Shown: positions 6,639-19,619 of the stretch, piece by piece
Layout of the letters: each line of letters starts with the position of its first letter
Numbering within the stretch: position 1 is the stretch's first letter
The notes under the pieces: generated by a model
The model's database searches: none
What the model saw: the letters and a program-made list of their open reading frames with translations, nothing else
Told to the model about the DNA's origin: nothing
Assembly (NCBI RefSeq): GCF_005281475.1
Contig: NZ_CP040106.1
Span: 3,128,501-3,192,500, forward strand
DNA from: Echinicola rosea
Lineage (GTDB): Bacteria; Bacteroidota; Bacteroidia; Cytophagales; Cyclobacteriaceae
DNA: 64,000 nt
Reading direction: 5' to 3'
Translations under genes and position numbers: made by a program

Positions 6639-7667
6639 CTATTTCTTTGAACTTGATTCCCTGACTATCAATTCAGTCTTTAGGGTGACGATTTCCGATT
6701 CGATCAAATCCTCTCCATCTTCTTCAATTTGCCTGATAAGAAGTTTGGCAGCTGCTTGGCCCATTTCGAATGCCCGGTCGTTCACCGACGATAGGTTGGG
6801 CTCAATGATCTTGGAAATGGGGTAATTACTGAAGCCAACAACAGCCACTTGGTCAGGGACCTTGAACCCATTTTTTTGGAATACCTGAATGGCACTGACT
6901 GCAGTATAGTCATTGGAACAAAAAATACCATCTGGCTTGACAGGGTGGGATAGGAGTGCTCTTGCTGCGGAAAGACCTTCGTCATAGGTTAAACCTTTTG
7001 TAAACTGGATGAATTCGGACGAAACCTCAAGATGGTGGTTTTCCAAAGCTTTTCTAAAGCCTTCATACCTGGATTTGAAAATCCCGGTTGTTTGGGGACC
7101 ACCAATATGGGCTATGTTTTTACACCCCTTCTCGATCAAATGCTCGGTGGCCCGCAATGAAGATTCGAAATCATTGATGATCACTTTGTTCGCTTCAAAC
7201 CCAATGGGTACGCGGTCGTAAAACACCATGGGCATTTTCATTTTTTTTAGTTTCTTAAAGTGGTCTATGCCCCTTGTTTCGGCTCCCTGGCATATGATCA
7301 CCCCTGCAAACATATTGTTCTGCAACGTTTCTGTAATTCGTTTTTCCCGTTTAAACGAGTTTCTGCTTTGGAAGATCGTTACGTTGTAACCCGACTTGTG
7401 TGCATATTCCTCTATTCCGCTGATGACAAGGGAATGGAAGTGGATGTCTATTTGAGGCACAATTACTCCGATGGCAAGTGTTTTGCTTTTTCTGAAACTC
7501 GAGGCAATGGAATTCCGCGTAAATCCCAGTTCAACAGCTTTTTGCTTGACCCTTTCCTTCGTTTCTGGGCTTATTCCAGGATGGTCGTCCAAGGCCCGTG
7601 AAATCGTAGAAACAGCGAGGCCCAGTTCTTTTGACAAATCCTTTAAGGTAATTCTTCTTTTATTCAT
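6639..7667 (-). CDS. LacI-family transcriptional regulator of the amino-sugar PUL
   Basis: This is a DNA-binding sugar-responsive regulator. The start chosen is the ATG at 7667 (342 aa), because the protein then opens with MNKRRITLKDLSKELGLAVS, the standard LacI helix-turn-helix followed by the hinge helix. The longer reading from 7778 adds 37 residues unlike the family. The periplasmic-binding-protein-like domain follows (IGVIVPQIDIHFHSLVISGIEE, then DGIFCSNDYTAVSAI and VAVVGFSN). The palindrome GCAAACGTTTGC lies 12 nt before the start and again in front of the divergent susC, which suggests autoregulation plus control of the locus. The inducer is presumably GlcNAc or GlcNAc-6-P, inferred from the genes it faces. 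It is analogous in role to NagR of proteobacteria. Confidence 0.93.
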   Translation of the reverse strand: MNKRRITLKDLSKELGLAVSTISRALDDHPGISPETKERVKQKAVELGFTRNSIASSFRKSKTLAIGVIVPQIDIHFHSLVISGIEEYAHKSGYNVTIFQSRNSFKREKRITETLQNNMFAGVIICQGAETRGIDHFKKLKKMKMPMVFYDRVPIGFEANKVIINDFESSLRATEHLIEKGCKNIAHIGGPQTTGIFKSRYEGFRKALENHHLEVSSEFIQFTKGLTYDEGLSAARALLSHPVKPDGIFCSNDYTAVSAIQVFQKNGFKVPDQVAVVGFSNYPISKIIEPNLSSVNDRAFEMGQAAAKLLIRQIEEDGEDLIESEIVTLKTELIVRESSSKK

Positions 7668-7679
7668 GGAAAACTTTCG

Positions 7680-7691
7680 GCAAACGTTTGC
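7680..7691. promoter_or_regulatory. LacI-type operator O1 (perfect 12-bp palindrome)
   Basis: GCAAACGTTTGC has the classic LacI-family central CG palindrome. It sits 12 nt upstream of the regulator start codon, just downstream of a degenerate -7-like TATATTG on the minus strand, a position fit for autorepression. An identical copy lies at 8421-8432. Confidence 0.85.
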
Positions 7692-7784
7692 AATATAAGC
7701 ATTATTTTTCAGGGTTCTATGTGGTTTACTGTGGGTAACTGGTTTAACCTTATTGCTCAGATTCAGTCTGGTTTTCATTTTTAC

Positions 7785-7850
7785 TGTTGTTACTTTTTTT
7801 TCTACAGGTAAAAAAAGTAAAAAAAACGCCGCTGTGTAGCTATTGAGCTA
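7785..7850. repeat. Degenerate intergenic hairpin repeat, copy A
   Basis: The copy has TGTTACTTTTTT, then A-rich AAAAAAGTAA, then CGCCGC, then GTGTAGCTATTGAG. The same order of blocks recurs at 38811-38891. The first two blocks can form a T-rich/A-rich hairpin. No coding potential was seen. Confidence 0.5.
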
Positions 7851-8420
7851 AAATTAAACCCCGCCCTCATGCAGGCAAACTCCTCTTGTTTAGCCACCAG
7901 CCACCTTTATTCTCATCACTTCGTCAAACAAGCCTACCTCTTTTTCCACGCGCTTGTTTTATTTCTTTACGCCCAATAGCTGCAAGGCGGATAAAATCTA
8001 TCAGGCTATTTCATTATAAGAGAAAAGGCTAATGGAGGAATAATTTACCCACTATAATCCGCATAGAACCTTTTTCAGAAAGGGCTTTTGCATAAACTTG
8101 CTGAGGCGAAATCGCTCTTTCCAGAATGAAGCTCAGGACGACTATAGCGCTAAACTTCCCTTAACTTCATAGCAATGAGCCCATTAAAGGAGAAATCACT
8201 TCGGTTGAGAAGAAGCAATCTTCCGATTTTTCAATCTTACAACTTCCCAATCCTATTATTAAGCTCCCCTCAACCTTCTGACTGATCCAAGAAGAGTCAG
8301 GCCCACATCTTTCGGCGGGGAGCCAAAAAGGGATTTTCCCGAAACTGGCCATAAATGCTCCCATTCCACGCGGCAACCCTGCTGTATTACCATTTGGATA
8401 AATAAATATGAAAAATATAT
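7851..8420. other. Intergenic region between the regulator and susC
   Basis: About 570 bases hold no credible gene on either strand. One minus-strand frame (8167-8517) is open but has no homology-like features, overlaps the susC promoter and reads through low-complexity sequence. Apart from copy A of the hairpin repeat and the operator/promoter at its two edges, nothing was recognised. Confidence 0.6.
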
Positions 8421-8432
8421 GCAAACGTTTGC
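8421..8432. promoter_or_regulatory. LacI-type operator O2 in front of susC
   Basis: GCAAACGTTTGC is identical to the copy next to the regulator gene. It overlaps the TTTG -33 box of the susC promoter, so binding there should block RNA polymerase. Confidence 0.87.
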
Positions 8433-8459
8433 TATTGTTTTGCATTGAGTTTACATTTG
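8428..8459 (+). promoter_or_regulatory. Bacteroidota-type promoter of the amino-sugar PUL
   Basis: A TTTG -33 box (8428-8431) is followed after 20 nt by TACATTTG (8452-8459), which matches the -7 consensus TAnnTTTG. Transcription would begin near 8466, giving a leader of about 40 nt before susC. The -33 box lies inside the operator palindrome. Confidence 0.7.
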
Positions 8460-8508
8460 GATAATACGATTTTGATAATTCTTCTGATAACATTTTAATC
8501 CAAATTCT

Positions 8509-11500
8509 ATGGGGCATTTTAACAGGTTTGTACAGGCCAAACCATGGTTTTCAGTAATGATTATTCTATTAAATATGGTATGGTCTTTTAGTTTGTTTGC
8601 GCAAGGGGAAAATGTGGCAGGAGTGGTAAAGGACGGGGAGAATGGGGAGCCTTTGATCGGGGTATCTGTGTTAGTAAAAGGTACTTCCAAAGGCGTGGTC
8701 ACCGATTTGGATGGGGCTTATTCTATTCAGGGCGTGTCTATGGAAGATGTGTTGATTTTCTCTTATTTGGGGTATTCCACGAAAGAAATCCCCATTAGTG
8801 GGCAGTCAGTACTTGATGTGACACTTGTTTCAAGCGCAAGTGATTTGGACGAGGTGGTCATCGTCGGGTATGGTGTCCAGGAAAAAAGAAACCTGACGGG
8901 GTCTATTGCCTCTGTGGGAAGCGATGAGGTGCGCAAAACAAATATGCAGGATCCCATATCGCTTTTGCAGGGAAGGGCGGCCGGAGTTCAAGTAACATCC
9001 AATTCCGGGGCACCTGGGGGAGGCATGACAATCAATATCAGGGGAAGTTCCTCTCTCAATGCCGGGAACAGTCCCTTATATGTGGTGGATGGAGTACCGA
9101 TCGAAGCCAACGTAACGTCTTCCTTAAATGGCTCAGAGAATTTCGGCCTCAACCCATTGGCAGCCATCAACCCAGCGGATATTGAATCAATTGAAGTATT
9201 GAAAGATGCTTCCTCAACGGCCATATACGGTTCCAGGGCGGCCAATGGGGTTGTGTTGATCACTACAAAAAGGGGCAAGGATGGCAAGGCGCAAATTACA
9301 TTGAACGTACATTCAGGAGTGAGCCAAATCACCAGAAAGCTGGATGTGCTCAATGCCAGCCAATATCGGAGTGCCGTACTCGATTCCTATGCCAATTCCG
9401 CTGATGGCCGGGAGCCGATTTTTGCAGTCGTCGATTCATTGAGCGCTACAAACAATGGGGATGTGGATTGGCAAAGTGAACTGCTGAGAAAAGCCGTTCA
9501 GACAAATGTGGACCTGTCCGTTCAGGGAGGATCTGAAAATGTCAAGTACGCTTGGAGCTCCTCGTTTTTGGATCAGGACGGTATCGTCCTCAACTCGAAT
9601 TACCGTAGGATCACTTCCCGGCTCAATGTGGATTTCAATGTAAACGATCGCCTCACGGTGGGCCAAAGTATTTCATACTCAAACGGTGTGAACAACAGGA
9701 TCAATGCCGCAGGTACGGGCAACCTGAGCATCATCCGCGAATTGCTTATTCGGCCTCCATCTTATTCGATGTACCTTCCGGATGGCTCCATCAATGGGTA
9801 CCAGTTTGGAAAACGGAACCCGGTGGGGCTTGCGGAGCTGTCCACTAACCTCAATAAAACCAACCGGATAATTGCCGGACAATACTTTGAGTACAAATTG
9901 GCCGAAGGCCTGAAGTTTAGGACTTCTGTCAACGTGGACTTCCTTTCCATGAAAGAGGACACGTTTATTCCCTCAACCCTGGATTATCGGGAGGGGTACA
10001 ATACCGGCTCGGTAAGATCAACCAATAACCTGACCTGGTCCAATGAAAACATAGTGACCTACCAAAAGCAAATTTATGGAAAACACAATTTGGGTGGACT
10101 TTTGGGATTCAGTTATCAGGATTGGGACTATGAACGAACAGGTTTGGACGGGATGTTTTTTCCCAGCGATGACATCCGAACCCTAAACGGGGCGGGGACC
10201 ATTTCCAACCAAGGTGTGAACATCGCCACGTCACATTCCCTGCTGTCTTACTTTGGAAGGGTTTCTTATGACTATGACCGGAGGTACCTTTTCGAAGCCA
10301 ATTTAAGGGCAGATGGGTCCTCCCGGTTTGGAAGTGAAAACCGATTTGGATTCTTTCCTTCGGCTTCTGTCGGTTGGAGGTTTTCCGATGAACCATTTTT
10401 GAGTGGTGCAGGAGTGCTTGATGATGGCAAGTTGCGCTTTAGTGCCGGTCAGACAGGTAACGAGGCCATTGGAAATTACACTTCACAAGGTGAGTTCATG
10501 GTGGGAACCAACTACTTGGATTATTCGGGAGCTGCCCCTACTGTTATGCCCAATTCGGGGTTGTCCTGGGAAACCACCACACAGTATAATGCGGGAATAG
10601 ATCTGGCCTTTTGGCAGGGACGGCTGGGTCTGACCGTAGATGCATACATCAAGGATACAAAAGACCTGCTCTATAACGTGCCCATACCAAGGGAAACTGG
10701 CTTTGGTTACATCACCCAAAATATCGGAAAGATCCAGAACAAGGGAATCGAAGTGGTGCTCAACACACACAATGTGACCACCCGGCATTTCAACTGGAGT
10801 ACTAGCCTTAATATTAGTAAGAATACCAATGTCATCAAGGAATTGCCAGAAGAACTGTTGACCAATGGGTTTATCCAAAACGGAAATTACCATATTCTCC
10901 AGGAAGGTTTTCCGATCGGTACGTTTTACGGATGGCGATTTGATGGTGTTTATGCCAGGGATGAAGACAATGTCAACGGCATCACCAACGGAACCCAAGG
11001 GCCTGTATTTGAAGGAGGTGACCCTATTTGGCATGACCTTAACGGTGATAATGTGATCGATCAAAATGACAGACAGATAATTGGTGATGCAACGCCGGAT
11101 TTTTTCGGGGGGATCACCAACGACCTTTCCTACAAAAACTTCAGCCTGAGCTTTATGTTTCAATTTTCCTATGGTGGGGAGATCTACAGTGAGATCAACC
11201 ACCAGCGCAATTCGATTGTACGGTACAACAACCTGTCCACAGCTGCACTAAACAGATGGAGAGAGCAGGGAGACATCACGGATTTTCCCAAGCCGGTACA
11301 GGATGATCCATTGCAGAGTGATAGCAGGATACAGAGCAGATGGGTTGAAGATGGTTCATACATTAAACTGAAGAATGTCAACTTCCGCTACTCCTTTCCA
11401 CTGGAGTTGGTCAACCGTATTGGGCTGTCCCGGCTGGATGCCTATGTGACAGGAACCAACCTGGTCACATGGACAGATTACACGGGATTTGATCCTGATG

Positions 11501-11592
11501 TCAGTTCGTACAGTGGACTGAGAATAGGAGTGGATGAGGGATCATACCCCCAAAGCAGAACGGTGATCGTAGGCTTATCAATTGGACTGTAA
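8509..11592 (+). CDS. SusC/RagA-type TonB-dependent transporter of the amino-sugar PUL
   Basis: This is an outer-membrane oligosaccharide importer of 1027 aa. Order of parts: signal peptide (to about residue 32, SLFAQ), carboxypeptidase-D-regulatory-like beta-sandwich (about 34-110, with GVVTDLDGAYSI), TonB-box/plug entry LDEVVIVGYGVQEKRNLTG (about 113-130), plug with SIEVLKDASSTAIYGSRAANGV, then the barrel, ending with VIVGLSIGL. It lacks an STN domain, in agreement with control by the LacI regulator rather than by a FecR/sigma pair. SusD begins directly at the stop codon. The chito-oligosaccharide or GlcNAc-glycan substrate is inferred from the NagA, NagB and GH20 genes downstream. Confidence 0.96.
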   Translation: MGHFNRFVQAKPWFSVMIILLNMVWSFSLFAQGENVAGVVKDGENGEPLIGVSVLVKGTSKGVVTDLDGAYSIQGVSMEDVLIFSYLGYSTKEIPISGQSVLDVTLVSSASDLDEVVIVGYGVQEKRNLTGSIASVGSDEVRKTNMQDPISLLQGRAAGVQVTSNSGAPGGGMTINIRGSSSLNAGNSPLYVVDGVPIEANVTSSLNGSENFGLNPLAAINPADIESIEVLKDASSTAIYGSRAANGVVLITTKRGKDGKAQITLNVHSGVSQITRKLDVLNASQYRSAVLDSYANSADGREPIFAVVDSLSATNNGDVDWQSELLRKAVQTNVDLSVQGGSENVKYAWSSSFLDQDGIVLNSNYRRITSRLNVDFNVNDRLTVGQSISYSNGVNNRINAAGTGNLSIIRELLIRPPSYSMYLPDGSINGYQFGKRNPVGLAELSTNLNKTNRIIAGQYFEYKLAEGLKFRTSVNVDFLSMKEDTFIPSTLDYREGYNTGSVRSTNNLTWSNENIVTYQKQIYGKHNLGGLLGFSYQDWDYERTGLDGMFFPSDDIRTLNGAGTISNQGVNIATSHSLLSYFGRVSYDYDRRYLFEANLRADGSSRFGSENRFGFFPSASVGWRFSDEPFLSGAGVLDDGKLRFSAGQTGNEAIGNYTSQGEFMVGTNYLDYSGAAPTVMPNSGLSWETTTQYNAGIDLAFWQGRLGLTVDAYIKDTKDLLYNVPIPRETGFGYITQNIGKIQNKGIEVVLNTHNVTTRHFNWSTSLNISKNTNVIKELPEELLTNGFIQNGNYHILQEGFPIGTFYGWRFDGVYARDEDNVNGITNGTQGPVFEGGDPIWHDLNGDNVIDQNDRQIIGDATPDFFGGITNDLSYKNFSLSFMFQFSYGGEIYSEINHQRNSIVRYNNLSTAALNRWREQGDITDFPKPVQDDPLQSDSRIQSRWVEDGSYIKLKNVNFRYSFPLELVNRIGLSRLDAYVTGTNLVTWTDYTGFDPDVSSYSGLRIGVDEGSYPQSRTVIVGLSIGL

Positions 11593-12972
11593 ATGAAAAA
11601 ACTTATGAAAATTAGCAGGAATATCTTTATGTCAATGTTGACGCTCGTTTTCTTCTCATGTGCAGAGAATTTGCTGGAAAAAGAGCCGGTCAGTAGTTTT
11701 TCCGCCCAGGGATTTTATAAGACTTCGAGTGATGCACAGTCCGGGGTGTATGGGATATACGATGCCGCACAGTCCGCCTTCTCCCTGAACTTTTCCCTAT
11801 GGGGAGAGGGGAGGGCGGATGCGGTCAGTACCAACCAGTCCGGAGATCCTTTTTTGCTCCAGGAAAACAACCTGAACCCCACATTGAACTCGGCCAGATG
11901 GGATAACCTCTATGAGACCATCAGCAGGGCCAATTATGCCATTAAATATGTTCCCCCTGTATTTGAGGAAGGAGAAGAGTTTGGCTTACAGTTAGTGGGG
12001 CAAGCCAGGGCCTTGAGGGCTTTGTGCTATTTCTATGCCGTACGGGTGTGGGGCGACGTGCCGTTGATTTTGGAGCCTTATGAAAGTGTCCAGCAGGACC
12101 TGTTCAATACGCGCACCGATGCCGAAACCATCCTCGATCGCATGGAGGAAGACCTTTTATTTGCCGCTGAGCATTGTAGGGCTAGTTTTGGGGGCGAAAG
12201 GGATCGGAATCTGATTACCCAAGGAGGTGCCAATGCCTTGTTGGTCCAGCTGTATATGTGGCGAGGAGAATATACCAGTGCCATTGCAGCGGCAGAAAAA
12301 GTTATGGATAACTCATTGTACCAGTTGGTATCCATCAATGACTGGTCAAAAATCTTTACGCAAGGGTACTCTAACGAAAGCATTTTTGAAATAGGCTACA
12401 ATGAAGTGCAGACCAATTCCCTTCGTGTACTGTACGCATTGGGTTCGGACAGTAATTTCTTCCCCAGTGAATCCTTTCGAAACTCATTTGAGGAAAGTGA
12501 CCAAAGGCAAGCCCTCATATATGATGTAACGGCTGCCCAGCCTCGAAAGATCTGGAAGTTTTTTGGAGAGGGCTTCAATGACGAAAGTCCCGATCCATCT
12601 GCAAACAATATTGTTATGGTCAGGCTGGCAGATATCATATTGCTGAAAGCGGAAGCCCATAACCAACTGGGAGAGGTCGATGAGGCCTTAGCCTTGCTGA
12701 ATACCATTCGGGCCAGGGCGGGGTTGGAAAGTCTTACCTTGAACTCTGCCCAGACTCTTTATGGAAACCTGGAGACTGCCATTTTGCACGAGCGCTCGAT
12801 CGAACTTTGTTTTGAGGGACATCGGTGGTTTGACCTGGTGAGGACAGGGAAAGCCATGGAGGTAATGGGGCCCATCAACGGCTTGAGCCAAGAGGCAAAT
12901 TTAGTATGGCCTTTACATCAGGACGCCATTAACAGGAATCCGAACTTGGTTCAAAATGGGTTTTATGATTAA
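11593..12972 (+). CDS. SusD/RagB-family lipoprotein of the amino-sugar PUL
   Basis: This surface glycan-binding partner of the preceding SusC is 459 aa, at the short end of the family. The start ATG follows the susC stop with no gap, so translation is probably coupled. The lipoprotein signal ends with FFSC (Cys23). The TPR-like SusD core is visible: ARALRALCYFYAVRVWGDVPLI near residues 138-159, a helical ANALLVQLYMWRGEYTSAI segment near 216, and the C-terminal ERSIELCFEGHRWFDLVRTG near 399-418. The last part (NPNLVQNGFYD) is the usual SusD ending. Family is certain, specificity inferred. Confidence 0.95.
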   Translation: MKKLMKISRNIFMSMLTLVFFSCAENLLEKEPVSSFSAQGFYKTSSDAQSGVYGIYDAAQSAFSLNFSLWGEGRADAVSTNQSGDPFLLQENNLNPTLNSARWDNLYETISRANYAIKYVPPVFEEGEEFGLQLVGQARALRALCYFYAVRVWGDVPLILEPYESVQQDLFNTRTDAETILDRMEEDLLFAAEHCRASFGGERDRNLITQGGANALLVQLYMWRGEYTSAIAAAEKVMDNSLYQLVSINDWSKIFTQGYSNESIFEIGYNEVQTNSLRVLYALGSDSNFFPSESFRNSFEESDQRQALIYDVTAAQPRKIWKFFGEGFNDESPDPSANNIVMVRLADIILLKAEAHNQLGEVDEALALLNTIRARAGLESLTLNSAQTLYGNLETAILHERSIELCFEGHRWFDLVRTGKAMEVMGPINGLSQEANLVWPLHQDAINRNPNLVQNGFYD

Positions 12973-13011
12973 AGCTTTTTGCCAAAATTTTCAACGCAAA
13001 AACCAAAAGGA

Positions 13012-14454
13012 ATGAAGAGTTTACCGATAAAAATAAATGGAGCCATACTTGCGCTCATCCTTGCCGGAGCGGTGATTTACGGCTGCACGGTCCAAGAGGA
13101 CTTTGACTACCAGCCGGCAGGCACCACTGGAAAGCTGGGGGTGTCAGCATTGGAGTATTTCCAATCGCACGAATCGTTTACCATGCTCGGTTCCGCCATT
13201 TCCCTAGCCGGATTGTCCGAAACGTACGATACAGACCAAATCAGGACCTTTATCGCGCCTACTGATAGGGCTTTTGAGGAATACCTGCAGGCAAATGCCT
13301 ATGAAAGTTTGGAAGATGTGCCAGTGCCGATCTTGAAGAATCTCCTGAGATACCACATCGTCGATAATAAGGTGTTGTTTACTGATCCTGAATTGTTCGA
13401 AAGCAATTTACCGATAGCCTATCCTACAGAAAGTGGCCAGGTGATGTACCTTTCCCATAATACCAACTTCGTGGGGCTGGTCAACCAAGGGACCAGCAAG
13501 CAATGGGAAATTTCCACCTCAAATCTGGAACCTACCAATGGGGTGATCCATGTGGTAAATGAAATAGTCTATTTTTCGGCAGCATCTACGGATCTGGATG
13601 AGCTGGATCCTTCCGTAAAAACGGATACCATATTCCCCTTGGCAGACACGTATATCAATGGGGGAGCAGCAGCCAATAGAAATTTCGGCGCTGACAATCT
13701 GTTAAAAGTGAAGAACGTGACAGGGGATGGGGATTATGACCGAAAGGCCTATTTAATGTTTGATTTGAATGAGTTGCCTGCGGAGGGTGTTATCACGGAT
13801 CTCCGGCTTGAAGTGGGCGTATCCTTTACCCATGCAAAAAATCTGGACATGAACCTTTTTCAGGTTCCCGATACCACGTGGACCGAGATGGGCCTGAACT
13901 GGAACAACGCCACCATGCCTGTTGACCCGCCAATCACGACCATTACCACGACCAAAGTCAGTTCCTTCAATTTTGATTTGACGGATTTCTTCGGAAGGAT
14001 GGAGCAAAGAGGGAAACTTTCGCTGATGATCGATGGACAGGATACGGGAGATGAAACAAATGATTTGGCCTCCAAAGAACACGAAACCCTGCCTGCACCG
14101 ATGATCATCGCCATCATCGCCACTGGAAACAGTGTACTTGACTTGGTGACCAATACTGGAATATCCGTGGAGTCAGGAGGTAGCGTGGCCTTGGACTCGG
14201 AGATGCTGGAAATAACTGGAGCCTCCGCCAATGACATCATCTACACCGTGGAGGAAGTGGCTCAGCATGGCTGGTTGATCAGCGGTGCGACCATATTAAA
14301 ACCTGGTGATCGATTTACCCAAAATGACATCAATGTCATGAACCTAGTCTATATCAGTAATGGTGAAGGCAGTGAAGACCATCTTGTCCTTTCAGCAAGA
14401 GATAGGGCGGGAGCCAAATTAGATCCATTCGAGGTGGAGGTAATTATTGATTGA
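13012..14454 (+). CDS. Multidomain surface lipoprotein: FAS1 + DNRLRE + cadherin-like domain
   Basis: This is a candidate surface glycan-binding or adhesion lipoprotein. The ATG at 13012 is preferred over the upstream TTG at 12979, since it gives a clean 24-residue lipoprotein leader (ILAGAVIYGC, Cys25) and follows AAAAGGA. Domains in order: a fasciclin/FAS1 domain (about 44-195, with FIAPTDRAFEEYL and NGVIHVVNEIVYF), a DNRLRE-type beta-sandwich (about 203-355, with DTYINGGAAANRNFG and KAYLMFDLNELP), and a cadherin/CSPG-like repeat (about 370-480, with FTQNDINVMNLVYISNG). No catalytic residues were recognised. It occupies the slot where a PUL usually encodes its SusE/F-like binding protein. 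Domain calls are by eye; the binding role is inferred. Confidence 0.85.
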   Translation: MKSLPIKINGAILALILAGAVIYGCTVQEDFDYQPAGTTGKLGVSALEYFQSHESFTMLGSAISLAGLSETYDTDQIRTFIAPTDRAFEEYLQANAYESLEDVPVPILKNLLRYHIVDNKVLFTDPELFESNLPIAYPTESGQVMYLSHNTNFVGLVNQGTSKQWEISTSNLEPTNGVIHVVNEIVYFSAASTDLDELDPSVKTDTIFPLADTYINGGAAANRNFGADNLLKVKNVTGDGDYDRKAYLMFDLNELPAEGVITDLRLEVGVSFTHAKNLDMNLFQVPDTTWTEMGLNWNNATMPVDPPITTITTTKVSSFNFDLTDFFGRMEQRGKLSLMIDGQDTGDETNDLASKEHETLPAPMIIAIIATGNSVLDLVTNTGISVESGGSVALDSEMLEITGASANDIIYTVEEVAQHGWLISGATILKPGDRFTQNDINVMNLVYISNGEGSEDHLVLSARDRAGAKLDPFEVEVIID

Positions 14455-14580
14455 ATTTAATTGCCCCCAAAAGGAATTGATATTTATTGAATTAATAGCG
14501 TTATAACTAACTTAATAGTGGGTAAGGGACGGTCTTATCTGGTTGCAGACGGAGATGTCCTGCCCACTTCTTATAAAAAA

Positions 14581-15354
14581 ATGATAGACCTTCAAAAAGA
14601 CATATATGTCTTTTCCAACCGAGAACTTGCGGGAATAGCTGCAGGTAAAGAAGTAGAGCAATGCATCGTGAACTTGCAGGCTGCGCAAGATGAAGTAAGA
14701 ATTGTTTTTGCAGCAGCACCCTCCCAAACAGGAATGCTATCTTATTTGGCTTCATCAAATAAAATACGATGGGAAAAAGTTGTAGCCTTCCATATGGATG
14801 AATACATAGGTTTGGAGAAAAATGCCCCGGAGTTGTTCGCATCTTATCTAAAGGAAATATTGTTTTCCAAATTGCCTTTTAAAGAAGTAAATTTGATCAA
14901 GCCCCAAGGAGATTCACAAGCTGAACTTGCCCGATATGAGCGCTTGATTGCCAAAGCACCCATAGACTTGGTATGTCTGGGGATCGGCGAGAATGGACAT
15001 ATCGCTTTCAATGATCCTCCAGTTGCGCAATTTGATGATCCACAGGTGATTAAACTAGTTGAATTGGAGGAGGCATGTAGGGTCCAGCAAGTAAATGACC
15101 AGTGTTTTGACCAATTGGAAGACGTGCCGACCACCGCTGTTACGCTTACTATCCCTACCTTAATGGCCGCAAAGGCAATGGTATGTGTCGTATTGGGTGA
15201 AAATAAAAGTCAGGCTGTCAGCGATACATTGACCAAAGCGGTCAGCACAGATTGTCCTGCATCCATCCTGACTACTCATCCCAACTGCAAGTTTTATTTT
15301 AATCAGGCGGCCGTGAGTAAGATCGATGGCCAATCCTATACAGTAATAGAATAA
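14581..15354 (+). CDS. nagB: Glucosamine-6-phosphate deaminase
   Basis: This cytoplasmic enzyme converts glucosamine-6-phosphate to fructose-6-phosphate and ammonia. Family motifs are present: AAAPSQTGMLSYL (phosphate-binding turn), FHMDEYIGL (catalytic Asp of the sugar isomerase fold) and CLGIGENGHIAFNDPP, which carries the His of the active site. The ATG at 14581 gives 257 aa, close to the usual length. An in-frame GTG at 14518 would add 21 residues that look unlike the family, so it is less likely. It lies in the operon ahead of GH20, the symporter and NagA. The identity as GlcN-6-P deaminase rather than 6-phosphogluconolactonase rests on the GHIAFNDP motif and on nagA in the same operon. 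Confidence 0.9.
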   Translation: MIDLQKDIYVFSNRELAGIAAGKEVEQCIVNLQAAQDEVRIVFAAAPSQTGMLSYLASSNKIRWEKVVAFHMDEYIGLEKNAPELFASYLKEILFSKLPFKEVNLIKPQGDSQAELARYERLIAKAPIDLVCLGIGENGHIAFNDPPVAQFDDPQVIKLVELEEACRVQQVNDQCFDQLEDVPTTAVTLTIPTLMAAKAMVCVVLGENKSQAVSDTLTKAVSTDCPASILTTHPNCKFYFNQAAVSKIDGQSYTVIE

Positions 15355-15381: not shown

Positions 15382-16983
15382 TTGGTAACAAACAACAATA
15401 GCAACAACTGGCACAAGCAATCTCTACCTACACTTGGAGTCTTTCGCTTGATTATATGTCTTCTGTTCTTTTTTCAGTCCATCGCTGGCTATTCTCAATC
15501 CAAGAATGATCCGGGAGACAGTGACTTTAAGGTGAAAGGCTTCCATTTGGATCTCCGCGTTCAAGTGATGACGCCCGAAGCGTTGAAGCATTTTGCTAGG
15601 CAAATGGCAGATTTTGGATTGAATACGCTCGTGATGGAATGGGAGGCGACCTATCCATTCAAGGAACACTTGACTATCGCCAACCAGTTTTCATACAGCC
15701 GTGAGGAAATCGATGATTTTATCGCTTACTGTGATCATTTGGGGATTCAGGTCGTTCCCTTGCAACAAAGCTTGGGGCATGTGGAGTATATTTTAAGAAA
15801 TCCCAGGTATAGTGAGCTGAAAGAAGACAGGAAGGACATTTCCCAGCTATGCCCGATGAAAATAGCACAAAGTGAAGTCTTGTTCCAGTCCCTTTTTAAG
15901 GACTTGGCAGCAACCCATAATTCCGATTATATCCATATTGGTGGAGATGAGACGTATTTGCTGGGGCACTGCGACCTTTGCAGTGCTAGGGCCGAAGAGG
16001 TCGGCAAGTCCCAGCTTTTTGTGGACCATATGAAAATGATTGCCAACTTGGTAATTGAAAATGGAAAAACGCCGCTAATGTGGGCGGATATCATCCTAAA
16101 GTACCCTGAAGCTGCGGCCGAGCTGCCTAAAGAAACTGTATTTGTCGATTGGAATTACGGTTGGAAAACCAACCACTTTGGAGATGTATCCAAACTCCAG
16201 GAGTTAGGGTTTACATTCTGGGGAGCGCCTTCTATCCGCAGTCATCCAGATAACTGGTACATGACCAATTGGTCCACGCATTTTAATAATCAACGGGACT
16301 TTATTCCCTATGCCAGAGCAAGCCAGTATGAAGGAATGATCATGACATCTTGGTCCACTTCCGGGCTTTATGGATTTACTTGGGACGTTGGCTACGATGT
16401 GGCCGATATGGTCCAGATCAGAAATACCTATCCGATGTCAGGGTTTAGGGTTTTGATCGCCAGCTACGCTGCGGCCTTGTCCCATCCAGAGGAGTTTCAG
16501 CCACAGGAATTTGTGGTTAATTATGCTTCTGATAGGTTTGGCCTCAACGAAAAGGAAGCCAATCAGCTGTGGGAGTTTTTGGTGTTTCCTCGGGAGTTGA
16601 TCTCCAACGCTAAACCCGTAAAAAGCAAAAGCGTGTCCGAGGTAAAGGAAAACTATCGGCAAGTCAGCGATCCATTATTTCAGCTTAGTCCAAACCAGCA
16701 CGAAGAAGAGTTCGATCATTTTAGGCTAATGGCCAACTTGCGGATGCTTTATTTGGACTACAAACAAGTCGATGAAGTGTATAATTCGCCTGAATTCACC
16801 AAGCTCCTCCTTCCAGACCTTACCAAGCAAATGGAAGCCATTCTGGAAAGGTCAGAAGAACTGAACAAAGCGTTTTACAAATTGAATACAGGTTTTTTAT
16901 ACGATGCAGAAATAGAAGAACTCAATAGGCAGAGAGTACTGCCAATAAAAGTTTTGTACCACCGACTGGCTAAGTTAAAGTAA
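15382..16983 (+). CDS. Secreted family GH20 beta-N-acetylhexosaminidase
   Basis: This exo-enzyme releases terminal GlcNAc or GalNAc. The 533-aa protein has a GH20 TIM barrel with HIGGDETYLLG, giving the catalytic Asp189-Glu190 pair of substrate-assisted catalysis. Neighbouring motifs are VVPLQQSLGHVEY and LMWADIIL, and the aromatic subsite region includes VDWNYGW. A signal peptide (IICLLFFFQSIAGYSQ) is evident but has no ATG before it, so the start must be non-ATG; the TTG at 15382 is the best available. It lacks the small N-terminal GH20b domain that many hexosaminidases carry. It is 27 nt from nagB and 1 nt from the symporter gene. Confidence 0.9.
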   Translation: MVTNNNSNNWHKQSLPTLGVFRLIICLLFFFQSIAGYSQSKNDPGDSDFKVKGFHLDLRVQVMTPEALKHFARQMADFGLNTLVMEWEATYPFKEHLTIANQFSYSREEIDDFIAYCDHLGIQVVPLQQSLGHVEYILRNPRYSELKEDRKDISQLCPMKIAQSEVLFQSLFKDLAATHNSDYIHIGGDETYLLGHCDLCSARAEEVGKSQLFVDHMKMIANLVIENGKTPLMWADIILKYPEAAAELPKETVFVDWNYGWKTNHFGDVSKLQELGFTFWGAPSIRSHPDNWYMTNWSTHFNNQRDFIPYARASQYEGMIMTSWSTSGLYGFTWDVGYDVADMVQIRNTYPMSGFRVLIASYAAALSHPEEFQPQEFVVNYASDRFGLNEKEANQLWEFLVFPRELISNAKPVKSKSVSEVKENYRQVSDPLFQLSPNQHEEEFDHFRLMANLRMLYLDYKQVDEVYNSPEFTKLLLPDLTKQMEAILERSEELNKAFYKLNTGFLYDAEIEELNRQRVLPIKVLYHRLAKLK

Positions 16984-16984
16984 C

Positions 16985-18457
16985 ATGGAGCTGCTGGATT
17001 GGATCGTACTTGGGCTATATTTTGTCATGCTGCTGTCCATTGGGCTGTGGGCTTATCTGAGGGTAAGGAATTCCGAGGATTTCTATACGGCGGGAGGAAA
17101 ACTTCCTTGGTGGCTTTCTGGAATTTCCCATCATGTTTCTGGATATAGTGGGGCCGTATTTGTGGCCTATGCGGGGATAGCCTATACGCATGGTTTTACC
17201 ATTTATGTTTGGTGGGCTTTTACGGTGGCTGTGGCCGTTTTTGTGGCAGCCTTCTATATCGCACCCAGATGGGCGAGGCTTCGGGTGAACTTTGGAGTCC
17301 AGTCTCCCACAGAATACCTGTTGATGCGATATAATCTTCCGACACAGCAGGTGATTGCTTGGGTAGGCACCATTATCAAAGTTTTTGATACAGGAGGAAA
17401 GTTGGCCGCGATCGCCATTTTATTGAATGTGTTCAGCGGTACTTCCATCACTTTTGGTGTACTGCTGGTCGGATTTATCTCTTTGATCTATATCACTATT
17501 GGAGGGCTATGGGCTGATGTATGGAATGACTTCGGCCAGTTTTTGATCCAATTGCTGGCGGGGGTGACCATGTTTGTGATGATCCTGTACAAGTTGGGTG
17601 ATGGTGTTTCAGGGGTTTTCACTCTCTGGGACCGGCTTCCCGAAGAGCATGCCGCATTCTTCCATGATCCCTATACCATCGGTTTTGCAGCCGTTTTGCT
17701 GGTGATCAATTTCTTTAGCTACAGCGGTGGAACGTGGAATCTCGCTACTCGCTTTATTTCTACGACCTCCGGAAAAGTGGCCAAAAGAGCAGCATTGCTA
17801 TCTTCTGTACTTTATTTTACTTGGCCTTTGATCCTTTTTTATCCCATGTTTGCTGCGCCGGTTTTTTTCGAAAATCTGGCGGACCCAACGTTATCCTATG
17901 GCAAAATGGTATTGGAATTTCTCCCCAATGGGCTTATAGGGCTGGTACTGGCATCGCTTTTTGCCAACACCCTTTCCATGACCGCTTCGGACTCCAATAC
18001 TGTTTCAGCGGTCATAAGTAGGGACATTTTGCCTGTTTTGTTTCCACATGTCAAAGAATTTTCCAAGGCCCAAGCATTGACCTTGGCACGGGTTACTACA
18101 TTCTGTTTCACCATTTTGACCATTTTCACAGCCATCAATGCGGCCAACTTCGGAGGTGTATTCGGTTTGATGATTTCTTGGTTTGCAGCCTTATTGGGCC
18201 CGATAGCAATTCCTATGATCTTGGGGTTACTTCCTGCATTCAAAAGGAGTGATGCCATGTCCGCCATGTGCGCCATAGTTTCTGGACTTGTCACCTTTAT
18301 TTTGCTCAAAATTTTTCCTGTGAGTTCTTTAGCTTTGGAAATAGGAGCACCAACGTTGGTTTCCTTTTTTACCTTCGTCGTGACAGGTTTTTTCAGAACT
18401 GTAAAAGTAGCCCCAAAGGTCGATGAATTAATTAATGGATTAAGCAAAAAGGATTAG
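16985..18457 (+). CDS. Sodium/solute symporter (SSS family), probable GlcNAc importer
   Basis: This inner-membrane secondary transporter of 490 aa has about 13 hydrophobic segments. SSS hallmarks: the N-terminal FYTAGGKLPWWLSGIS (SSS entry loop), the GGLWADVWNDFGQFLIQ segment in the middle, and NTLSMTASDSNTVSAVISRDI, where the family keeps the Na+-site Ser/Thr residues. It starts 1 nt after the GH20 stop and ends 1 nt before nagA, tightly coupled. The context makes N-acetylglucosamine (or a short chito-oligosaccharide) the likely cargo. It differs from NagP, the MFS-type importer of other Bacteroidota, so here an SSS protein would do that job. Cargo is inferred. Confidence 0.9.
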   Translation: MELLDWIVLGLYFVMLLSIGLWAYLRVRNSEDFYTAGGKLPWWLSGISHHVSGYSGAVFVAYAGIAYTHGFTIYVWWAFTVAVAVFVAAFYIAPRWARLRVNFGVQSPTEYLLMRYNLPTQQVIAWVGTIIKVFDTGGKLAAIAILLNVFSGTSITFGVLLVGFISLIYITIGGLWADVWNDFGQFLIQLLAGVTMFVMILYKLGDGVSGVFTLWDRLPEEHAAFFHDPYTIGFAAVLLVINFFSYSGGTWNLATRFISTTSGKVAKRAALLSSVLYFTWPLILFYPMFAAPVFFENLADPTLSYGKMVLEFLPNGLIGLVLASLFANTLSMTASDSNTVSAVISRDILPVLFPHVKEFSKAQALTLARVTTFCFTILTIFTAINAANFGGVFGLMISWFAALLGPIAIPMILGLLPAFKRSDAMSAMCAIVSGLVTFILLKIFPVSSLALEIGAPTLVSFFTFVVTGFFRTVKVAPKVDELINGLSKKD

Positions 18458-18458
18458 C

Positions 18459-19619
18459 ATGGAAAAAATAAAGCATGTCGATGGTATTCACTACCAAACA
18501 CAACGTCCTATCCGACTAACGTTTGATCACGGTTTGATCAGCGGAATGGAAGCATTGGAAGAAACGTCCTCTTCCATGCTAATAGCTCCCGGGTTGGTGG
18601 ACTTACAGGTAAATGGATTTCAAGGAGTGGACTTTAATGCCCCCGACCTTTCGGTAAATGATGTGGTATTTTGTACTGAGAAACTTTGGGAAAATGGCGT
18701 GACTACGTTTTTGCCGACATTGATCACCGCTAGTGAACAGGCCTTGTCTGAATCCATCAAGAAAATAAGCCATGCCTGCGAAGATCCGCTGATAGCCGCA
18801 TCAATAGCCGGGATCCATTTGGAAGGACCTTTTATCAGCAAGGATGCAGGGCCTCGGGGAGCACATCCCCTGGAGTTTGTGCAGGAGCCAAACTGGGAAT
18901 TTATCTCCCGTTTGCAAAAGGAGGCAAATGGTAAAATTAAATTGATCACCCTTTCTCCAGAATATCAGGGGTCAAACGATCTGATAAAAAAATGTGTACC
19001 CGAGAATATCCAGGTAGCCATTGGGCATACCGCTGCCCAAGCGGGTCAGATAAATAAAGCCGTTGAGGCAGGGGCGAGTCTTTCTACCCATTTGGGAAAT
19101 GCCGCCCATTTATCATTACCGCGACATCCTAATTATATCTGGGATCAGCTGGCAATGGATGACCTTTGGACAAGTATGATATCCGATGGGTTTCATTTGC
19201 CGGATGCTGCTATGAAAGTATTTATGAGCGTAAAGCCGGATAAAACTTTCTTGGTGAGCGATTCGACCAAGTTTGCTGGCTTGCCAGCTGGAACGTATCA
19301 AAGCCCTATTGGTGGGACGGTGCAGTTGACTTCGACAGGGAGGCTCTGCATGCAGGACAATCCGGATTTACTCGCAGGATCAGCAGTTTCCCTCAAATCT
19401 TGCCTGGAATATTTGGTCCAAACAAACTTGGCGACATTGCCCAATGCGATTAACATGGCATCCGTCAAGCCATTGTCCTACTTGGGGAAGGGCAGGAAGA
19501 TCAGGGCCTTCCAAGAAGGAAGCAAGGCAGATGTGGTCCTGTTTGCGCACAACGACAGTAAAATGGTGATCTACAAGACCATCAAGAGCGGAAGGCTAGT
19601 TTATTCATCAGAAATATAG
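18459..19619 (+). CDS. nagA: N-acetylglucosamine-6-phosphate deacetylase
   Basis: This cytoplasmic amidohydrolase converts GlcNAc-6-P to GlcN-6-P and acetate, feeding NagB. It is 386 aa, the normal size. The TIM barrel has GLVDLQVNGFQGVDFN, the metal-ligand motif HLEGPF with Glu122, GHTAAQAGQINKAVEAGAS (with metal His) and THLGNAAH. Near the C-terminus DSTKFAGLPAGTY carries the catalytic Asp region, and the last strand is AFQEGSKADVVLF. It follows the symporter by 1 nt. It needs a kinase to make its substrate; none is encoded in this window. Confidence 0.94.
   Translation: MEKIKHVDGIHYQTQRPIRLTFDHGLISGMEALEETSSSMLIAPGLVDLQVNGFQGVDFNAPDLSVNDVVFCTEKLWENGVTTFLPTLITASEQALSESIKKISHACEDPLIAASIAGIHLEGPFISKDAGPRGAHPLEFVQEPNWEFISRLQKEANGKIKLITLSPEYQGSNDLIKKCVPENIQVAIGHTAAQAGQINKAVEAGASLSTHLGNAAHLSLPRHPNYIWDQLAMDDLWTSMISDGFHLPDAAMKVFMSVKPDKTFLVSDSTKFAGLPAGTYQSPIGGTVQLTSTGRLCMQDNPDLLAGSAVSLKSCLEYLVQTNLATLPNAINMASVKPLSYLGKGRKIRAFQEGSKADVVLFAHNDSKMVIYKTIKSGRLVYSSEI

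Follow-up and report, generated by a model that had tools for sequence, protein, structure and literature searches.

Genes and features of the locus

The window, by which we mean the whole 64-kb stretch of DNA analyzed, belongs to a genome of 6,064,527 bp (6.06 Mb) in a single contig. On its minus strand lies lacI, with the first base of its ATG start codon at 7667, and on the plus strand lies susC, followed by six genes separated by gaps of no more than 63 nt (Table 1). The lacI product combines an N-terminal LacI helix-turn-helix with a periplasmic-binding-protein-like domain, both scoring above cut-off, which places it in the LacI/GalR family. Its best PDB matches by sequence are chains of CcpA; residues 5 to 339 of its 342 align with CcpA chains of 332 to 339 residues. 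The genome has 14 LacI genes, and the recognition helix of one paralog, L011, is similar to that of the window LacI.

Table 1. Features of the lacI-susC region and the operon, in window coordinates
Feature	Position	Strand	Basis or remark
LacI/GalR-family regulator (lacI), 342 aa	6639..7667	-	PF00356 32.0 bits (cut-off 27), PF13377 112.5 bits
Operator 1 (putative), GCAAACGTTTGC	7680..7691	.	12 nt upstream of lacI start codon
TATATTGC, putative lacI -7 box (TAnnTTGY form)	7690..7697	-	Last two bases shared with operator 1
Left 8-bp direct repeat TTTTTCAG	7705..7712	.	Sequence
MITE-like element, 358 bp	7713..8070	.	26-nt terminal inverted repeats, 85% complementary
Right 8-bp direct repeat TTTTTCAG	8071..8078	.	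Sequence
Operator 2 (putative), GCAAACGTTTGC	8421..8432	.	TTTG 8428-8431 inside, at -33 position
TACATTTG, putative -7 box of susC operon	8452..8459	+	TAnnTTTG 19 nt after operator 2; published consensus
SusC/RagA TonB-linked outer-membrane protein	8509..11592	+	TIGR04056 935.7 bits (cut-off 368.25)
SusD-like lipoprotein	11593..12972	+	PF07980 107.7 bits
Fasciclin/CBM96/cadherin-like protein	12979..14454	+	Domain matches
NagB-like deaminase/isomerase	14518..15354	+	PF01182; matches solved deaminases
GH20-like putative beta-N-acetylhexosaminidase	15382..16983	+	PF00728 57.5 bits; best PDB match 8qk1
Sodium:solute symporter (SSF)	16985..18457	+	PF00474 108.5 bits
NagA-like deacetylase	18459..19619	+	TIGR00221 207.9 bits, below cut-off 225.65

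The NagB-like protein reaches 127.3 bits against TIGR00502 (cut-off 236.9) and is one of two PF01182 proteins encoded in the genome, the other being a 6-phosphogluconolactonase (202.4 bits, cut-off 124.45). In the GH20-like protein, the motif HIGGDE aligns to HIGADE of the beta-N-acetylhexosaminidase 8qk1. These assignments make an N-acetylhexosamine a well-supported substrate of the operon, with GlcNAc in particular a candidate. The assignment stops at this class of sugar because the NagA-like and NagB-like proteins fall below their NCBIfam cut-offs and because domain and family profile searches found no kinase among the seven operon genes.

Two copies of one palindrome between lacI and susC

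A sequence-only reading of this DNA had described a twin 12-bp palindrome, one copy 12 nt before lacI and the other at 8421-8432, and both exact copies of GCAAACGTTTGC are indeed found there. A whole-genome pattern search, which addressed the question of unlinked copies, showed that these two are the only exact copies in the 6.06-Mb genome, with none outside the lacI-susC intergenic region, an outcome that favors the earlier reading; the reversed control pattern has one exact copy genome-wide. When up to one mismatch is allowed, the palindrome has 16 sites (the two exact ones included) versus 12 for the reversed control, so that degenerate copies carry no signal and the exact palindrome alone is informative. 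A first-order Markov model, with only the 64-kb window as training sequence, predicts 0.37 exact copies per genome and a probability of about 0.05 for at least two; taken alone, a copy number of two is just mildly unusual. We set chance aside because the two sites share one intergenic region, occupy promoter positions, and are kept as a pair at 12 further loci. In its sequence and placement the palindrome is built as a LacI/GalR-type operator, with a central CG and a position beside the regulator's own gene.

Two of the one-mismatch palindromes lie close to other LacI genes of the genome: GCAAAGGTTTGC (L017, G000:C1:482452) is 61 bp from the helix-turn-helix of LacI gene L012, and GAAAACGTTTGC (L027, G000:C1:3349765) is 156 bp from that of LacI gene L004. 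They may be candidate operators of these neighboring genes.

Putative promoter elements at the two sites

The same reading had placed a TTTG inside the second palindrome, 20 nt before a -7-type box, which agrees with the TTTG at 8428-8431 and with TACATTTG at 8452-8459; the latter ends 49 nt upstream of the susC ATG at 8509. The consensus for Bacteroidota given in PMC7366714 is TAnnTTTG at -7 with TTTG near -33, the -33 TTTG being reported there in Bacteroides fragilis and not identified in Flavobacterium johnsoniae. On the susC side, the sequence contains both parts of this sigma-A promoter pattern. The -7 box spans -12 to -5 according to PMC9723704, and the predicted start of susC transcription therefore falls at 8464, near the 8466 of the earlier reading, with operator 2 at -43 to -32. 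Since the -33 TTTG sits within operator 2 and is part of it, conservation of these four bases does not by itself count as evidence for the promoter.

The lacI side carries TATATTGC, a box of the TAnnTTGY form that overlaps operator 1. TAnnTTGY is a published variant of the -7 box (PMC9723704), and the same source considers variant promoters most likely to work under alternative sigma factors, for which reason its use as the lacI promoter box here is only a guess. A TAnnTTGY box overlapping operator 1 is present on the lacI side at nine of the 13 loci compared below (TATATTGC in eight and TAAATTGC in L091) and missing at the other four. Taken as the promoter box in the window, TATATTGC would place the start of lacI at 7685, halfway along operator 1, which may thus cover that start. 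The placements of both operators, on the susC side and on the lacI side, would fit repression.

Conservation of the layout across relatives

We compared 13 loci: that of the window, 10 chosen by the LacI protein alone, and those of G399 and G472, which came from a pattern scan. The protein-chosen orthologs are those of Algoriphagus sp. AGSA1 (L030, 86% LacI identity), Flagellimonas olearia (L031, 60%), and eight further genomes of the family (63 to 95%). In the search of 295 family genomes, LacI identity falls to 47% or less after the orthologs of 63 to 95%. Left uncounted were 25 of the 27 loci of the initial ortholog search, those with LacI identity below 60%, among them L034 (41%), a locus with its own exact palindromes. 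A 63% LacI ortholog is listed for Zobellia galactanivorans, an organism amenable to genetics.

Every one of the 13 intergenic stretches contains exactly two sites with an AACGTT core and at most two mismatches. Operator 1 has no more than two mismatches at any locus and is exact at eight of the 13; 6 to 13 nt separate it from the CAT that we read as the start of lacI. Operator 2 deviates only in L094, by one mismatch, and is exact at the other 12 loci. The TAnnTTTG box follows operator 2 after exactly 19 nt at all 13 loci, in two of which (G399 and G472) operator 2 and the box are present by selection. The bases of this 19-nt spacer vary: 15 to 17 are in common with the window in the four closest loci and 6 to 9 in the other eight. 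The distance between the operators takes 11 different values, from 116 to 149 bp at 12 loci and 741 bp in the window. The layout ranges from Cyclobacteriaceae to Flavobacteriaceae at LacI identities of 60 to 95%; Flagellimonas and Algoriphagus are placed in separate orders (and in separate classes under the NCBI scheme), and the genome collection classes G399 and G472 within the class of the window and outside its order. Judged by these sequence comparisons, the twin-operator layout is very probably real.

The pattern scan covered 395 genomes of the phylum, with the palindrome and the -7 box fixed and the distance between them free from 5 to 35 nt. It returned 11 matches in nine genomes versus four for the reversed control. 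Three matches have the 19-nt spacing, namely those of the window genome, G399 (LacI 65%), and G472 (LacI 63%). In the remaining eight the spacing is 35 nt in four and 17, 18, 25, and 33 nt in one each; four of the eight are near a LacI gene of 29 to 34% identity, and the other four have no LacI gene nearby.

In a group of more distant LacI proteins (43 to 46% identity), 14 of 21 loci had SusC in reach, with susC starts estimated from alignments, and the 19-nt arrangement was found at none of these 14, a weak control in that 12 of them had no TAnnTTTG in the stretch searched. A LacI operator on the -33 box was accordingly rejected as a general rule.

Genes under probable control at the relatives' loci

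At 11 of the 13 loci, susC comes first after operator 2. In L031 the NagB-like gene takes that place, and in L151 the symporter gene does; no NagB-like gene was found in the 17 kb of L151. In L094, lacI, the symporter gene, and nagA run in one direction from operator 1, and the series from SusCD to the NagB-like and GH20 genes runs in the opposite direction from operator 2; operator 1 thus also heads nag genes at this locus, since the symporter gene and nagA lie behind lacI and are oriented as it is. The symporter gene and nagA are present at all 12 loci whose sequence extends far enough (that of L030 reaches the GH20 gene only). Across genomes, therefore, LacI is linked to N-acetylhexosamine catabolic genes, the type of linkage that characterizes NagR-type local repressors of nag genes.

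The nine of 295 family genomes with a LacI ortholog (at least 63%) are also those with the nine best NagB-like matches, in a ranking without a clear gap (the tenth genome, G012, which lacks a close LacI ortholog, scores 309 bits versus 320). Because 91 of the 295 genomes have a NagB-like match at an E value of 1e-30 or better, and because the tenth follows closely behind, the NagB-like enzyme also occurs without a LacI of the window type. The NagB-like stretch of L089 (G190), at 8692-9516, contains two stop codons, and the other eight stretches checked contain none; one stop each was counted in G070 and G007 in the slightly longer matches of the family search.

We also searched the 11 genomes with a LacI ortholog for the operator, 19 nt, and TAnnTTTG with up to two mismatches, which gave 21 matches versus none for the control. 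Eleven of them, with zero or one mismatch, fall at the lacI loci themselves, one per genome. Of the remaining 10, L145 and L150 are the same intergenic region matched from the other strand or site, and seven others have two mismatches, L146 and L149 lying beside other LacI genes by coordinates. The last, L021 (G000:C1:2192175-2192213), consists of GCAAACGCTTGC, 19 nt, and TATATTTG (one mismatch) before a tRNA-like sequence and is probably a coincidence. Among the five of these 10 matches that were placed relative to genes or known loci, no convincing distant regulon target was found.

A mobile element between the two operators

The 741-bp gap between the operators in the window is due in part to a MITE-like element of 358 bp. 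This element is short, ends in terminal inverted repeats, is flanked by a target duplication, and has many copies, all features of MITEs. Its end pattern (up to three mismatches) occurs at 46 plus 46 sites in the genome versus none in the control, and these ends pair into 37 elements of 332 to 963 bp, 24 of which are 367 bp long; two other copies that were checked are each flanked by 8-bp repeats of their own. An ISL3 transposase was considered as the source of the element and rejected, as no gene for such a mover was found in the genome by PF01610. One paired element of the same family (G000:C1:4248467-4248832) neighbors another LacI gene, L009 (4248188-4248325), whose helix-turn-helix is about 140 bp away.

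The stretch of about 330 bp between the element and operator 2 (8079-8409) is missing from this place in the relatives, and it has only matches of 39 to 66 bases in 11 genomes of the genus, self excepted. Past 7712, the sequence upstream of lacI is unlike that of the relatives. Rfam gave no matches at the gathering threshold in the 64-kb window. Both operators and the susC promoter lie clear of the element and of the 8079-8409 stretch, and the insertion is thus a mobile element landing between two putative operators with both left intact. This element, like the overlap of the lacI-side site with a TAnnTTGY box, was absent from the sequence-only reading.

A proposed switch and its alternatives

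We propose that LacI represses both itself and the SusCD/N-acetylhexosamine operon through the two putative operators and is released by an inducer, a reading in which we have good confidence from the comparative evidence. The sequence-only reading had proposed such control, and the layout at all 13 loci, along with the gene rearrangements, fits it. Without inducer, a LacI dimer on operator 2 would occupy the susC promoter from approximately -43 to -32, the -33 TTTG included, and would keep RNA polymerase off, leaving the SusCD/NagB-like/GH20/symporter/NagA operon silent. A dimer on operator 1 would cover approximately -6 to +6 of lacI, that is, the end of the -7 box and the start site, resulting in autorepression. 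An intermediate of N-acetylhexosamine breakdown, in the simplest case an N-acetylated amino sugar or its 6-phosphate, would then free the operators of the repressor. The two operators probably act independently of each other.

Not every alternative to this switch excludes the others. Activators can act from sites that overlap the -33/-35 region, and operator 2, centered near -37.5 if transcription starts at 8464, is close to class II activator positions, so LacI might activate susC instead of repressing it. We regard this as unlikely: the susC promoter already has TTTG and the full TACATTTG at 20 nt and does not look activator dependent, repression is the simpler reading of operator 1 over the predicted lacI start, and the two LacI-family nag regulators compared below, of Shewanella and Stenotrophomonas, are repressors.

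The presence of both sites at all 13 loci would also suit cooperation through DNA looping by a LacI tetramer. E. coli LacI has a tetramer tail, but the CcpA-like alignment of residues 5 to 339 of 342 leaves little room for one in the window protein, and the operator spacing shows no clear helical phase at 116 to 149 bp and is 741 bp in the window, which makes looping very improbable. Least probable of all is that a different one of the 14 LacI paralogs binds the sites, or that the copies are due to chance, for despite the similar recognition helix of L011 and the occurrence of the same 12-mer beside more distant LacI genes elsewhere and near the 41% relative L034, the genome has no other exact copy and no one-mismatch copy near L011, and both sites accompany the window-type lacI at 13 of 13 loci.

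Repression by LacI from the two operators, the reading we prefer, leads to a further proposal that we believe and doubt in about equal measure. One 12-bp sequence may be at once the repressor's operator and a core promoter element, its right half-site supplying the -33 TTTG of sigma, such that repressor and sigma compete for it. If true, this competition would hold the 19-nt distance constant in both orders, with the spacer sequence, the gap between the operators, and even the controlled gene free to vary. Likewise, the mobile element that helped to widen the gap to 741 bp would be a natural experiment in which each site works alone.

Comparison with known regulators

MalR and PurR are LacI-family regulators. 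The same core, GCAAACGTTTGC, is given in two papers for a MalR operator (PMC4451989) and for putative Haemophilus PurR sites (PMC3739930), which belong to a maltose regulon and a purine regulon, respectively, each of another phylum. NagR of Shewanella oneidensis (PMC3223726), likened to the window LacI by description, is likewise of the LacI family and represses GlcNAc uptake and nagK-nagB-nagA, and GlcNAc suppressed its gel shift; it differs in being gammaproteobacterial and in having a regulon spread over several promoters, one of them that of cbp, whose locus tag is distant. NagI of Stenotrophomonas maltophilia (PMC13055268) is also a LacI-family repressor of a nag operon, with data consistent with GlcNAc-6P as the inducer, but it comes from another phylum and its gene lies inside its own regulated operon. 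Within the Bacteroidota, control of amino-sugar or chitin use is described for NanR of Bacteroides thetaiotaomicron (PMC3878776), a predicted ROK regulator, and for CusS/CusR of Flavobacterium johnsoniae (PMC5127042), a two-component system, neither of them LacI. No LacI-type nag repressor in Bacteroidota was evident among the papers listed, taken mostly as titles and the openings of abstracts.

The proposed switch is new in detail and known in kind. It would give the Bacteroidota a local sugar repressor whose operators are predicted and whose operator-promoter geometry, kept from Cyclobacteriaceae to Flavobacteriaceae, can be tested. In addition, the system offers a route to asking whether promoters of Bacteroidota really use the -33 TTTG.
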